Assembly: GCA_023250585.1 (NCBI GenBank)
Contig: JAHFAK010000132.1
Span: 1 to 5,339 of the forward strand
Source of the DNA: Deltaproteobacteria bacterium
GTDB taxonomy: Bacteria > Bdellovibrionota_F > JAHFAK01
DNA length: 5,339 bases
Reading direction: 5' to 3'
Position numbers and translations under genes: made by a program. Below are positions 182 to 5,062 of this stretch, one piece after another (position 1 is the stretch's first letter; every line of letters begins with the position of its first letter). The notes beneath the pieces are model-generated. The model saw only the letters and a program-made list of their open reading frames with translations. It had not been told where the DNA came from and did no database searches.

Positions 182-1441
182 CTAATTTTTATTCAGTAAG
201 AAATCCATGACAAGTTTTTCAATCTTATCTGCAGAAGGATCTGATTGAAGCGCATAACAAGGAATTTGTAACTCTGCTTTCTCCCATAAATCACAATTAT
301 TATCAGTTATAACAAGCATCTTAACTTTTCTTGATTTCCATAATAATACTGTTCCGACATCATCCCCAAATAACTCATTTGAATTCTTTGGTTCACTACT
401 TGTACTCGTAAAATAAACAATGCGATCTATGTTTTTATACTGAGTGTCCACAAAGGATAAATTCTTTAGGCAATTAAAACCAACCGCATCTTCGCTAAAG
501 GTTAGCTTTCCTTGTATTTTACCAAGTATTGACTCGCCTGTTGTACTTTCCTTAGGTAGGCTCGATAATTCTTCTGCTGTAATTACTGTTCGCAATGCTC
601 CATCTCCTTCCATTGTGATAAGAGATAGTGCTTCTTTAAATCCCTCATCTTTTAATACAAAGAACATCTCTAGAAGAGAATCTCGTATCGCATTGGAACG
701 TCCTGCAGAATGAAAAGATTTTAAGTTTTCTAATAAAATTATTTTTTGGTTGGTCTTTATTAGTGTGAAATTAAAGACAAGCCTATCTCCTTCAATCTCT
801 CCCTGTTTGCATGGAGTTATATTCTTATTACTATTCATCATTTTCACCCAGCTACTTGAGGGTATTTCTAATTCAGCTATACTAAAAATAGGTCTCCACG
901 TGTAGGCTTCTTCTTGGTTGGTAATTGTTTGACAGCTACCTTCATCGACAAATACGACTATCTTCTCTTTGCCACTCAACTGATAGCCCTTAACTTTCAC
1001 TTTATATTTTTTAGAAGATTCTCTATCTCCTGTAGGAAAAGAACTATGAGTCGTCTGTTGTTCTTGTGTAGAATTTTGAGAAAATGCTTTAAAATTAAAT
1101 ACTACATAATTCCCTTCACGTAATCCTTTTTGGCAATTGGTTAAATCTTGACCCTTAAGTATCACTTTAGCCCACGTATTGGGGACAACTCTTCTTTCTT
1201 CAATAAAAGATTGAATGAAAAAATCAGATTCTTCTGGACTCTTACCTGTCGTACAACTATTTTCATCCCTAAAAAAAACCATTTCTGTACCATCTACTCT
1301 GAATTCAATACCTTTGACTTTTATAGCATATTCTTTATTTTCTTGAGCATCCATTACAGCTTTTTCTCCCGCTGATATACTTTCAATCATACACATACTT
1401 AGTAAACATATCATCATTCTCTGTACATTATATCTCCACAT
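182..1441 (-). CDS. Secreted protein of unknown family: two tandem ~80-residue two-cysteine domains plus a degenerate vWA-like C-terminal region
   Basis: The product is 419 residues. The ATG at 1441 is chosen because AAGGAGGT stands five bases upstream; an in-frame ATG at 1504 would overlap the preceding gene and lacks such a site. Residues 8-24 form a hydrophobic export signal with possible cleavage after ISA; no proper lipobox is present. Residues 38-117 and 146-225 are clearly duplicated. Each copy starts with KVKG, has F-x-DE-x-SC, P-x3-W-x-K and T-x-C-x2-G-x2-EG, and ends in VFNF. Two cysteines about 40 residues apart (63/103 and 170/211) suggest one disulfide per copy. Residues 233-398 show alternating hydrophobic strands and helices (IILLENLKSF, a long helix, EALSLITM, TTGES, RIVYFTS, KVKMLVIT) that resemble a von Willebrand A domain. 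The metal-binding DxSxS would be replaced by E-x-L-x-S, so the metal site is probably lost. I do not recognise a named family. The gene starts 22 bases after the beta-helix lipoprotein gene and is very likely in its operon; a periplasmic or surface role is inferred. Confidence 0.88.
   Translation of the reverse strand: MWRYNVQRMMICLLSMCMIESISAGEKAVMDAQENKEYAIKVKGIEFRVDGTEMVFFRDENSCTTGKSPEESDFFIQSFIEERRVVPNTWAKVILKGQDLTNCQKGLREGNYVVFNFKAFSQNSTQEQQTTHSSFPTGDRESSKKYKVKVKGYQLSGKEKIVVFVDEGSCQTITNQEEAYTWRPIFSIAELEIPSSSWVKMMNSNKNITPCKQGEIEGDRLVFNFTLIKTNQKIILLENLKSFHSAGRSNAIRDSLLEMFFVLKDEGFKEALSLITMEGDGALRTVITAEELSSLPKESTTGESILGKIQGKLTFSEDAVGFNCLKNLSFVDTQYKNIDRIVYFTSTSSEPKNSNELFGDDVGTVLLWKSRKVKMLVITDNNCDLWEKAELQIPCYALQSDPSADKIEKLVMDFLLNKN
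767..1330 (-). repeat. Region coding for the tandem duplicated domain (copy 1 at 1091-1330, copy 2 at 767-1006)
   Basis: The two copies align almost without gaps over 80 residues: one residue is missing in copy 2 before the first cysteine and one is added between the cysteines. The distance from the second cysteine to the VFNF motif is 11 residues in both. They are joined by a 28-residue linker rich in Ser, Thr and Gln. The similarity is at protein level; the DNA has diverged, so the duplication is old rather than a recent tandem copy. Confidence 0.85.
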
Positions 1442-1446
1442 AGTAA

Positions 1447-1454
1447 ACCTCCTT
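1447..1454 (-). promoter_or_regulatory. Shine-Dalgarno site deciding the start of the duplicated-domain gene
   Basis: Read on the minus strand this is AAGGAGGT, a near-perfect anti-16S match, five bases from the ATG at 1441. It lies entirely in the 22-base gap after the beta-helix gene stop. It supports efficient re-initiation in a two-gene operon and rules against the upstream ATG at 1504. Confidence 0.85.
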
Positions 1455-1463
1455 CTTATATAC

Positions 1464-3413
1464 CTATTGTTGATACTCATATGCCCCAAGGTCAATGATG
1501 TCATTGACTATCCGTGGGTTACTATCTTTGTCAAGCAGCGGTGTAATCTCATTCCACTCAGAATTATCGCCTCTATCAATACACGTTGATCCTTCTTCTA
1601 ATTGGAAATCATCGCTAAAATAGGGCTTACAGGTCATATTGTTCGGAAAATCGCTTCCCGTATAGGTATCAAAATCTATAGTTTTACCATCTGAGGTAGC
1701 TAAATGTGCAGTGCTATCACCATTAAAACCATTGTATTCAAATTCAGGGAGAATAGCACCATCATTGGTATCAATGAAAACATCAACATAATTATTTACT
1801 GGATACTCATATACAATATTATTTTTTACCTTGAGGGTTGTCCCAGGGTATCTCTTTAATCTCATTGCATCCCCTATCCAAGAATCGCTTGAATCATTAT
1901 TTACTAACGTATTATTCAATATAAGCATATTTGATTTCGAAGAAAATGACTGCGCAGATAGTCCTCCACCAAAGTATCCGCTGTTTCCACCAAAAACATT
2001 ATTTATAAGTGAAACCTGAGAGCTATCGTGACTATTTATACATAGTCCTCCATAAGAACCTCCATGAGAGCCATTACTTTTATTATCATAAATACTATTG
2101 TTTGAAATTGTAGTAATCGAATCATCATAGCTATTAGAAGATCCTCCTCCACAATAGTCTGCAGTATTATCTTCAATAATATTATTAACCATCAACATGG
2201 TCGAATCTTTACTACTTGAAGTATATATTCCTCCTCCATTATAAGAGTTATTATTCTCAACAATATTATTTGCAATATACACTATTACATCATCATACAT
2301 ATATACGCCTATACCTCCTCCAAATGTATAATTATCTCCTATCTTTGACTGACGAATATTATATCGTACTTGAGTATTCTCAATAGTTACTCTACTTGCT
2401 TCTTGAGCTAGAATCTTTATACCTAAATTATTATTTGGATTTGAATCCTTCTTACCTTCAATTATTAAGCCATTCACATAAACTTTAGAATCTGCCCAAA
2501 TTGCGATAAAGAGTATGTCAAAATTCGGTTGAGTGGCTTTTAAGCCGCTATTCTCATCAATGCTGATTAAAAATAATGTTTTATTTATGCTAATTTTTTT
2601 AGTTATATTTATCATTCCTTTGATATTGACACATGAATATTTACTTGAAGAACTCACTGCGTTTTGTAATGCATTTTCATCGCTCACGGTAATGCTCGTG
2701 CTACTATTATTACAATATTGCTTCTGCAATTCACAAACCCAATCATCTTGATCAGGATTAAAGTTCTGGGGACAATTGTCTTCTGAATTTTTAATTCCAT
2801 CTCCATCATCATCACTTATATCCTCAGGTATAGGTACATCACTGGTATAATCATCTGCAAGTTCATCATCACTGTATGACTCACCTTTATTTTCACAGGG
2901 ATCCCCTTTGCCATCACCATCGGTATCACTTTGATCTTTATTTGCGATGGTAGAACAATTATCTTTAGTATTTTCAATACCATCTCCATCCATATCAGCG
3001 TCACAGACATCGCCTGCTCCATCATTGTCTTGGTCTTTTTGATCAGCATTTGCAACATCAACACAATTATCCTGCCAATTTTGTACTCCATCTTGATCGT
3101 TATCCCCGTTATCTTGGCTGTCACACATATCACCAAGCTTATCTTGATCTTGATCGGCTTGATCTGCATTAATAATAGTAGGACAATTGTCACTCTCATC
3201 AGATATTCCATCTCCATCAGTATCTGTCTGAATACTCTTTTCGGCTCCTGCTTCTTCAAGTATACCAGTCGTAGCCTCTTCCGAAGTTGGGTCGTCAGTT
3301 CCAGCTAAGACCTGTTCAGAACTACTCGACTCACCTGTTTTCAAGGATATAATCCCATCTGAACATGCCACAGATACACAGGAAATTAAAATCAAGGGTA
3401 GTGCTTTTCGCAT
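1464..3413 (-). CDS. Surface lipoprotein with thrombospondin type 3 repeats and a right-handed parallel beta-helix
   Basis: The product is 649 residues from the ATG at 3413. GAGGAG lies six bases upstream of that ATG, whereas the ATG at 3419 touches it directly and is unlikely to be used. The N-terminus is a lipoprotein signal: MRK, a hydrophobic stretch, then Cys12 in LISC or Cys17 in SVAC. A Ser/Thr/Glu-rich linker leads to thrombospondin type 3 calcium loops (about residues 64-174 and 201-227) with repeated D-x-DGDG and DNC. Residues ~255-545 form a beta-helix with regularly spaced NN-[IVT] turns and GGG-[IL] motifs. The C-terminus has a C-I-D-x-G motif and a closing DLGAYEY, typical of bacterial surface beta-helix proteins. 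Known members of these families are calcium-stiffened stalks with adhesive or carbohydrate-binding heads; a catalytic site is not evident. It is probably anchored in the outer membrane, with the TSP3 part as stalk and the helix as head (inference). A TATAAA lies upstream at 3432-3437 but no good -35 box was seen. The next gene follows after 22 bases. Confidence 0.92.
   Translation of the reverse strand: MRKALPLILISCVSVACSDGIISLKTGESSSSEQVLAGTDDPTSEEATTGILEEAGAEKSIQTDTDGDGISDESDNCPTIINADQADQDQDKLGDMCDSQDNGDNDQDGVQNWQDNCVDVANADQKDQDNDGAGDVCDADMDGDGIENTKDNCSTIANKDQSDTDGDGKGDPCENKGESYSDDELADDYTSDVPIPEDISDDDGDGIKNSEDNCPQNFNPDQDDWVCELQKQYCNNSSTSITVSDENALQNAVSSSSKYSCVNIKGMINITKKISINKTLFLISIDENSGLKATQPNFDILFIAIWADSKVYVNGLIIEGKKDSNPNNNLGIKILAQEASRVTIENTQVRYNIRQSKIGDNYTFGGGIGVYMYDDVIVYIANNIVENNNSYNGGGIYTSSSKDSTMLMVNNIIEDNTADYCGGGSSNSYDDSITTISNNSIYDNKSNGSHGGSYGGLCINSHDSSQVSLINNVFGGNSGYFGGGLSAQSFSSKSNMLILNNTLVNNDSSDSWIGDAMRLKRYPGTTLKVKNNIVYEYPVNNYVDVFIDTNDGAILPEFEYNGFNGDSTAHLATSDGKTIDFDTYTGSDFPNNMTCKPYFSDDFQLEEGSTCIDRGDNSEWNEITPLLDKDSNPRIVNDIIDLGAYEYQQ
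2733..3224 (-). repeat. Region coding for the thrombospondin type 3 calcium-loop repeats
   Basis: About seven Asp-rich loops are seen in order, alternating a long type (DTDGDGISDESDNCP, DNDQDGVQNWQDNC, DMDGDGIENTKDNC, DDDGDGIKNSEDNCP) with a short type (DQDQDKLGDMCD, DQDNDGAGDVCD, DTDGDGKGDPC). This alternation with paired cysteines is the hallmark of TSP3. The last short loop is shrunken to NPDQDDWVC and lacks most of the calcium-binding aspartates. A 27-residue acidic spacer separates the last unit from the others. Confidence 0.9.
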
Positions 3414-3419
3414 AGTCAT

Positions 3420-3425: not shown

Positions 3426-3713
3426 ATATAATTTATACTATGCATTATTAAGCAATTGACATGCCAAATTTTAGTTTTTGTTTTATTTACTAATAGCCTG
3501 ATTGTATTAGCAAAATTTTTGAATGGGCTTAAATCTTGAAATACTTCATTTGATCTTTATACAAAATTCCACAAATAATCCTGTATCTATGAAAATTTTT
3601 CCTATTATATAAAAACAAAAAAGAGGGAAAGGGAAAGGTGCCATCCACGAATCACAGGGAGCCCCACGGCTAAAGCCGTGGTACTCTGCGAAGGCGGATA
3701 GATTTGTTGATAC
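3426..3713. other. Non-coding gap between the YdeI-like gene and the beta-helix gene
   Basis: These ~290 bases hold no convincing gene on either strand. The half next to the beta-helix gene is very AT-rich and must carry its promoter; a TATAAA at 3432-3437 (minus strand) is a candidate -10, but no convincing -35 stands at the right distance. The other half has a purine-rich tract at 3611-3638 (a pyrimidine and T-rich tract on the transcribed strand) and the second palindrome copy at 3664-3681. The hairpin and the distant T-rich tract could together end transcription of the YdeI-like gene, but they are about 26 bases apart, too far for a classic intrinsic terminator. Confidence 0.5.
3664..3681. 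repeat. 18-base REP-like palindrome (copy 2)
   Basis: CCACGGCTAAAGCCGTGG has seven-base perfect arms around the four bases TAAA. It matches copy 1 at 133-150 at 17 of 18 positions. It lies 32 bases downstream of the YdeI-like gene stop. The flanks differ (TACTCTGCGAAGG here, CGAACGGACGAG at copy 1), so only the palindrome core is shared. Two copies in intergenic spaces within 3.5 kb suggest a dispersed element in this genome. Confidence 0.75.
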
Positions 3714-4355
3714 TCATGTTTTTGAGACCTTCTCCCGTTTAGTAAGATATTTATCATTAAGCCCAATGCCCTTTGCAATCAATTCCAGTGCTTTTTCTAT
3801 ATGTGCTTTGCGCGTCTCTTCTCGTTTGGCTTGCGTAATCCATTCAATATAATCGTACTGTTTAGTCTTGGTGAATTCAGTAAATTTTTTCTCTAACTTC
3901 TTTTTGTGTAATTCAGTTCTGAAATAGGTAGGTATCGTAAGAGATCTTTTCTGAGCAACTGGTTTTATGCTTTTCTCATTAATCAAAGCTGATTCGCGTA
4001 AATATTCGGCAATTTGTCGAATCAACTGCGGGCTTAAATCTTGGCCCGAAAAGAATTTAATCATACGATTACGACTATTGTCATGACCATCAGTAAAAAG
4101 CTTAAAGGAATCTTTCATAAGACCACCATTGAAAAACACAAATGAGACATGCTCCTTAAATCCCCATATGCCGCATATCATACCATGATGGTTAAAGTTT
4201 GGCCCCCATTTCCAGTCTTCTTTAATGTCTGGAAGAGTTTCATGAATAAGTTTTCTAAGCTTAAGACAGATAGTTTTCTGAAACCCTGATAAATTACTAA
4301 ATGCTTCATCAATTTTCTTTTGAGCGTCTTTTCGTATAGTTGTCATAGGTTGCAT
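3714..4355 (-). CDS. YdeI/OmdA-type protein with N-terminal DUF1801-like domain
   Basis: The product is 213 residues if the ATG at 4355 is used. No clear Shine-Dalgarno stands before it, before the in-frame TTG at 4370 or before the ATG at 4346, so the start is uncertain by a few residues. Residues ~15-120 look like the DUF1801 fold: a helix with LRKLIHETLPDI, then W-x-WGPNF, G-x-I-x-GI-x-GFK and VFFNGG. Residues ~140-195 match the OmdA/YdeI tail: IPTYF, a Lys-rich helix ending F-x-x-F, Y-x-Y-x-EWI-x-x-AKREETR and HIEKALELIAKG. Proteins of this family are small, soluble and cytoplasmic; they have been linked by name to bacteriocin protection, but their biochemical activity is not settled. No signal peptide is present, unlike all its same-strand neighbours here, so it is probably functionally independent of them. 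It follows the lipoprotein gene by about 100 bases, which may or may not be a shared transcript. Confidence 0.85.
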   Translation of the reverse strand: MQPMTTIRKDAQKKIDEAFSNLSGFQKTICLKLRKLIHETLPDIKEDWKWGPNFNHHGMICGIWGFKEHVSFVFFNGGLMKDSFKLFTDGHDNSRNRMIKFFSGQDLSPQLIRQIAEYLRESALINEKSIKPVAQKRSLTIPTYFRTELHKKKLEKKFTEFTKTKQYDYIEWITQAKREETRKAHIEKALELIAKGIGLNDKYLTKREKVSKT

Positions 4356-4378
4356 TACAACATATGACAATAGAATTT

Positions 4379-4453: not shown

Positions 4454-5062
4454 TTATTCTTTTTCAAATCCAACGACCATACCACTTCCAACTGGCAAAG
4501 ACACCGGTTCATCGCCTTTGAGCCATAGGCCCATTGCTTGCGAACCTGCACCAATAGCACCACCTGCAGCAGCTCCAGCGATAGCTCCAACAATTACTCC
4601 ACCAACCCCATATTTTGCGCCCACAAGAGCACCACCGAGTGCTCCAACTGTTCCACCTATTGCAGCACCTTTGCCCATTTCTTTCATATAGCGAGCTGTT
4701 GTAGGAGTAACGGCAAGTCGTCCTGATTGCATTGAATTTACTGGATATGATTGTTCAAAGTTATCTTTTTTGACTCGAATCACCGATGGAGCAAATTCGA
4801 CTTTGTTTCCACCCGTAACAAAGTATCCATCGAGAATGCTCCCCTGTGGAATTTTAGTTCCATCAGATAAATTAATAGGCGCAGCTACTTTAAACGATAC
4901 AGGTCCTTCCTCTACTGCCGTATTGAGCGCTGATTCTAAAAATACCGGCACACTTTTTTCAGTAATCGTTGGTCCCGTTGGATTCGTTCGTATTGGCTGT
5001 TTTGCAGCACAGGAAATGAAAAATAACACCGACATACTGTACAATAATATCTGTTTAACCAT
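4454..5062 (-). CDS. Small lipoprotein with glycine zipper, VirB10/TrbI-like fold suspected
   Basis: The product is 202 residues. The ATG at 5062 has GGAGG six bases upstream. Residues 1-18 are a lipoprotein signal ending in the lipobox-like FISC (Cys18), so it is probably anchored in a membrane facing the periplasm. Residues 38-118 form a beta-rich part with PVFLESALNTAV, V-x-APINLSDGTKIPQGSILDGYF, VEFAPSVIRV and a final SGRL. This order (small residue, then 'P-x-GS-x-L-x-G', then strands, then a Gly-Arg/Gly-Gly turn) resembles the C-terminal barrel of VirB10/TrbI, the outer-membrane core of type IV secretion. Residues ~130-174 are a long Gly/Ala-rich double hydrophobic segment with many GxxxG spacings, a glycine zipper that could insert in a membrane. 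The tail PVSLPVGSGMVVGF resembles the last VirB10 strand. The VirB10 link is my inference; a generic glycine-zipper envelope lipoprotein is the alternative. No other secretion genes are visible. Confidence 0.85.
   Translation of the reverse strand: MVKQILLYSMSVLFFISCAAKQPIRTNPTGPTITEKSVPVFLESALNTAVEEGPVSFKVAAPINLSDGTKIPQGSILDGYFVTGGNKVEFAPSVIRVKKDNFEQSYPVNSMQSGRLAVTPTTARYMKEMGKGAAIGGTVGALGGALVGAKYGVGGVIVGAIAGAAAGGAIGAGSQAMGLWLKGDEPVSLPVGSGMVVGFEKE

Follow-up and report, generated by a model that had tools for sequence, protein, structure and literature searches.

A putatively exported bacterial protein with a duplicated two-cysteine repeat and a predicted vWA-like domain

The locus and its surroundings

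The window analysed here is the whole 5,339-nucleotide stretch of contig JAHFAK010000132.1, from a genome assigned to the Bdellovibrionota_F; its features are collected in Table 1. A search for a 16S rRNA gene in this genome gave no match. The gene under study encodes a protein referred to as P0001, the coding part of which occupies positions 185-1441 and is followed by the stop codon TAG, with the ORF ending at 182. The ATG at 1441 is preferred as the start over an alternative in-frame ATG at 1504 because a Shine-Dalgarno sequence, AAGGAGG, lies six bases 5′ of it (within TAAGAAGGAGGTTTACT), whereas no comparable sequence supports the alternative, which also overlaps the gene upstream. The N-terminus (MWRYNVQRMMICLLSMCMIESISAG) reads MMICLLSMCMI and then SISAG, and by inspection resembles a signal peptide, in keeping with the original prediction of an exported protein; hydrophobic signal-like segments also open the two paralogues, P0002 and P0003, that are encoded in the same genome.

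Table 1. Features of the window (all on the minus strand)
Feature	Position	Strand	Description and basis
P0001 ORF	182..1441	minus	419 aa + stop; signal peptide, two repeat copies and vWA-like domain
C-terminal domain, residues 231-419	185..751	minus	predicted vWA/I-domain fold without canonical MIDAS; conserved Cys383 + Cys395; profile search, model, structure comparison
Repeat copy 2, residues 138-229	755..1030	minus	Cys170 + Cys211; predicted beta-sandwich; self-alignment, model
Repeat copy 1, residues 30-121	1079..1354	minus	Cys63 + Cys103; predicted beta-sandwich; self-alignment, model
Signal-peptide-like N-terminus MWRYNVQRMMICLLSMCMIESISAG, residues 1-25	1367..1441	minus	by inspection
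Ribosome-binding site TAAGAAGGAGGTTTACT	1442..1458	minus	directly before ATG at 1441; sequence
Upstream gene	1464..3419	minus	651-aa lipoprotein-like; thrombospondin type 3 repeats and right-handed beta-helix-like part; profile match
DUF1801 + OmdA (YdeI) fusion gene	3714-4370	minus	ordinary; profile match
Lipoprotein-like gene	4454-5062	minus	glycine-zipper segment (YMGG-like, below cut-off); profile match

The upstream gene lies on the same strand as P0001 at a distance of 22 bp, and the two are probably co-transcribed as one operon. Its product contains five thrombospondin type 3 stretches (E 7.6e-28), while the match to a beta-helix is weak. A palindrome, CCACGGCTWWAGCCGTGG, occurs at positions 133-150 and again at 3664-3681 of the window and thereby flanks exactly the unit made up of these two genes. 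With only seven occurrences in the whole 2.24-Mb genome, two copies 3.5 kb apart are noteworthy; the palindrome may represent a REP-type element, the border of a mobile unit or a bidirectional terminator.

A duplicated repeat with a conserved cysteine pair

Self-alignment of P0001 reveals two repeat copies with cores of ~80 residues each (residues about 38-117 and 146-225) that share 36% identity. Their local BLOSUM62 score of 138 is far above anything obtained from 5000 shuffles (mean 27, sd 4.8, maximum 57), and the duplication proposed in the original prediction is thus real. The copies have drifted apart at the DNA level, as had also been noted, with 55% codon-level identity and the same codon used at 19 of the 31 identical residues. 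Most of the motifs ascribed to both copies are indeed present in both, namely KVKG (residues 41 and 149), F-x-DE-x-SC (57 and 164), T-x-C-x2-G-x2-EG around C103 and C211, and VFNF (114 and 222), and the predicted equal spacing between the second cysteine and VFNF holds at 11 residues in each; P-x3-W-x-K, however, is found only in copy 2 (PSSSWVK), copy 1 having the shorter P-x2-W (PNTWAK).

The two cysteines within each P0001 copy are 40-41 residues apart, and the distribution of cysteines across the family is sparse and regular. P0001 contains the pairs 63/103, 170/211 and 383/395 in addition to a single C324; P0002 has only C56, C94, C276 and C289, and P0003, after its signal segment, only C57, C100, C290 and C304. 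The corresponding segment of a homologue from candidate division KSB3 (described below) likewise has only four, two in the repeat and two in the C-terminal domain. One conserved pair is therefore present in all five known repeat copies, across two phyla. Disulfides formed in an oxidising compartment would be expected to give such a pattern, and the conservation of the pairs suggests one disulfide per repeat, as originally proposed, and one further disulfide in the vWA-like domain.

The fold of the repeat was approached with AlphaFold2 models of moderate confidence, both built on three-sequence alignments: copy 1 alone (pLDDT 74.2, pTM 0.65) and copy 2 together with the C-terminal domain (pLDDT 69.8, pTM 0.59), the latter from P0001 aligned with the KSB3 protein and copy 1. 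Secondary structure strings from the two models agree in register at 86% of 87 positions, compared with a mean of 37% and a maximum of 51% in circular-shift controls; the models are not fully independent, since the same three repeat sequences underlie both. The modelled repeat is mostly beta with one short helix, close to the all-beta domain that had been anticipated, and is best described as a predicted small beta-sandwich of unknown relationship.

Searches of the repeat or the whole of P0001 against Pfam, NCBIfam, PADLOC and PDB sequences returned no family match, so that a repeat that could not be assigned to any known family when first noticed also appears undescribed in the libraries tested. 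Weak PDB matches of the repeat profile to TFIIE-beta (E 0.026-0.68, over 40 residues) were rejected, and Foldseek searches of the repeat model against PDB and viral models yielded nothing below E 0.02. A match of residues 92-245 to a phage tail sheath profile (phrog_1480, E 1.3e-4) was judged to be due to chance, because the paralogues lack it and because the matched residues run across the linker that joins two distinct domains. A known anti-phage defence system was dismissed in view of the lack of a PADLOC match.

In structure comparison, the copy 1 model comes closest to a carbohydrate-binding module, CBM41 (2j71; Z 5.5, rmsd 2.8, 74 residues aligned), and aromatic residues recur at certain positions of the repeat (W/F in Y-T-W and S-W-A-K), as would suit a glycan anchor, with a second interaction left to the vWA-like domain. 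Yet the CBM41 score is tied with that of an unrelated VHL beta domain and lies under the level that the structure-comparison tool calls meaningful. Although CBM41 and VHL-beta type sandwiches can be aligned over 74-78 residues of the model, they do so at Z values of only 5.0-5.5 and 5-12% identity. The repeat has no sequence match to CBM families, and CBM41 in particular has no Pfam match in P0001; a glycan-binding role is accordingly regarded as unlikely.

A predicted vWA-like domain as constant partner of the repeat

The original prediction treated the repeat as if it made up the whole protein and overlooked the C-terminal domain, which stands beside the repeat in each of the four proteins known. 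Residues ~231-419 of P0001 are predicted to adopt the Rossmann-like alpha/beta fold of vWA/I domains. The best match of the model is 9qhg_G (VIA-align; Z 11.6, rmsd 3.0 over 145 residues), a NorD vWA domain, followed by integrin I domains, the TFIIH vWA domain and VWF A1 at Z 10.7-11.4; 422 chains reach Z 8 or more, and among the fifty listed nearly all are vWA/I domains. The likeness to the NorD domain, the LFA-1 and Mac-1 I domains and VWF A1 is one of predicted fold, at Z about 11 over 142-156 residues. The assignment rests on predicted structure, because Pfam VWA profiles find no match in P0001, P0002, P0003 or the KSB3 protein, and a profile-profile comparison (hhalign) of the family's C-terminal domain with three vWA domains from its own genome was not significant (probability 0.2%).

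Unlike known vWA domains, the C-terminal domain belongs to no matching sequence family and has no conserved MIDAS, and a cysteine pair within a TxxxCxxW...C loop, present in all four members, also sets them apart from known vWA/I domains. In place of the canonical DxSxS...T...D, the first motif reads ENLKS / PTTNE / GNSEA / ENSQG across the four homologues, and the T and D of the other motifs are not conserved. Given the clear fold match, the domain might still bind metal through non-canonical residues and act as a classical ligand-binding vWA domain, and in the KSB3 homologue the first motif does retain ENS and the third T-D. MIDAS positions are conserved nowhere across the four proteins, however, and P0002 has PTTNE and S-A-K at the corresponding places, which makes retained metal binding improbable and favours a vWA-like domain without the canonical metal site.

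Separate profiles were built for the repeat and the C-terminal domain, and within the genome both match only one and the same set of three genes. In P0002 and P0003, just one repeat precedes the C-terminal domain. Among 386 genomes, the C-terminal profile alone identified one further member (E 5.9e-23), a 691-aa protein with one repeat directly before that domain, encoded by a KSB3 metagenome-assembled genome (DOLJORAL78_50_49, PDSJ01000025.1), and the repeat profile matches only the same two genomes. As both profiles find exactly the same genes, every repeat seen so far is accompanied by the C-terminal domain. The KSB3 protein has the same order of domains and the same cysteine pairs, with 29% identity to P0003, but differs in its greater length, an extra N-terminal region, a Thr/Pro/Ala-rich linker and a single repeat copy.

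Weak matches in four further genomes (G046, G070, G124 and G195; E 0.0008-0.0065) extend over just 42-79 positions and were set aside; by inspection, those in G070 and G195 belong to unrelated genes, for an rRNA methyltransferase-like protein and a response regulator, while the one in G046 lies in a reading frame interrupted by stops. Scans of genome contigs with a three-member family profile found nothing and, once the KSB3 member was added, only that member, although diverged members could be missed in such a scan because a strict 10-residue pattern is required. No homologues were found in viral contigs, plasmids or phages, and an origin from these sources was rejected. The family is very rare and so far known from only two little-known bacterial phyla.

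The usual architecture is a signal peptide, one repeat and the vWA-like domain. The searches described above produced single-copy homologues but no multi-copy member other than P0001, the only known source of the two-copy form. The two copies of P0001 score higher against one another (z 22.6) than either does against P0002 (z about 16) or against P0003 (z 5-6), and given this greater mutual similarity the duplication is probably a lineage-specific variant that arose after the split from the single-copy proteins.

A possible role in the cell envelope

The genes of the family are found in varied company. P0002 is located after nuo genes, and P0003 is flanked by exported-looking proteins and by an aspartyl-protease/PDZ-like gene. 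The KSB3 homologue is surrounded by OmpA-family, ABC-transporter, FGE-sulfatase and vWA genes, in what looks like an undescribed envelope cluster. Caspase/NHL, DUF4384 and OmpA-family proteins are also encoded there (L017 14451-16895, L018 6186-8198). As general background, KSB3 filaments have been described as Gram-negative and gliding (PMC4312070). With the exception of the nuo setting of P0002, which is uninformative, these gene surroundings, like the lipoprotein-like neighbour of P0001, fit the cell envelope; genomic context names no partner, because the neighbourhoods of the four homologues differ.

The KSB3 cluster raises the question of whether P0001 is part of a larger envelope machine. 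Its family member directly precedes an 814-aa vWA gene with a match to TssR_VWA at E 0.035, below the cut-off; the same profile, representing TssR of T6SS-iii, has no match in P0001-P0003 or the KSB3 homologue. Against such a role, the three homologues of the P0001 genome adjoin the TSP3/beta-helix gene, nuo genes and the aspartyl-protease-like gene, with no shared neighbour seen, and we give the idea little weight.

The architecture and the duplication of P0001 are well supported. Beyond these, we lean towards an exported, disulfide-stabilised envelope protein in which the vWA-like domain provides a metal-independent recognition or scaffold face that is extended by the beta repeats. P0001 would be exported to the cell envelope and stabilised there by its disulfides; with the MIDAS residues missing, the vWA-like domain may offer a metal-independent face for protein-protein recognition. 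The repeats may lengthen this face and add contact surface, as in a scaffold or adhesin-type component of the periplasm or the surface, and their doubling in P0001 could provide a longer stalk or a second binding site. A periplasmic or surface protein for protein-protein recognition or scaffolding is the most likely role. More tentatively, and with rather less confidence, the repeat may represent a new family of disulfide-clamped extracytoplasmic beta domains, possibly with a new strand arrangement, that occurs only in fusion with a metal-less vWA domain and constitutes an undescribed envelope module of two candidate phyla.

The immediate importance of these findings is modest, and the predicted disulfides are directly testable by way of the conserved cysteine pairs. 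Three paralogues, one of them internally duplicated, offer a clean case of tandem domain copying before a degenerate vWA domain, and the dark proteome of candidate phyla gains a domain family that is both undescribed and very rare.
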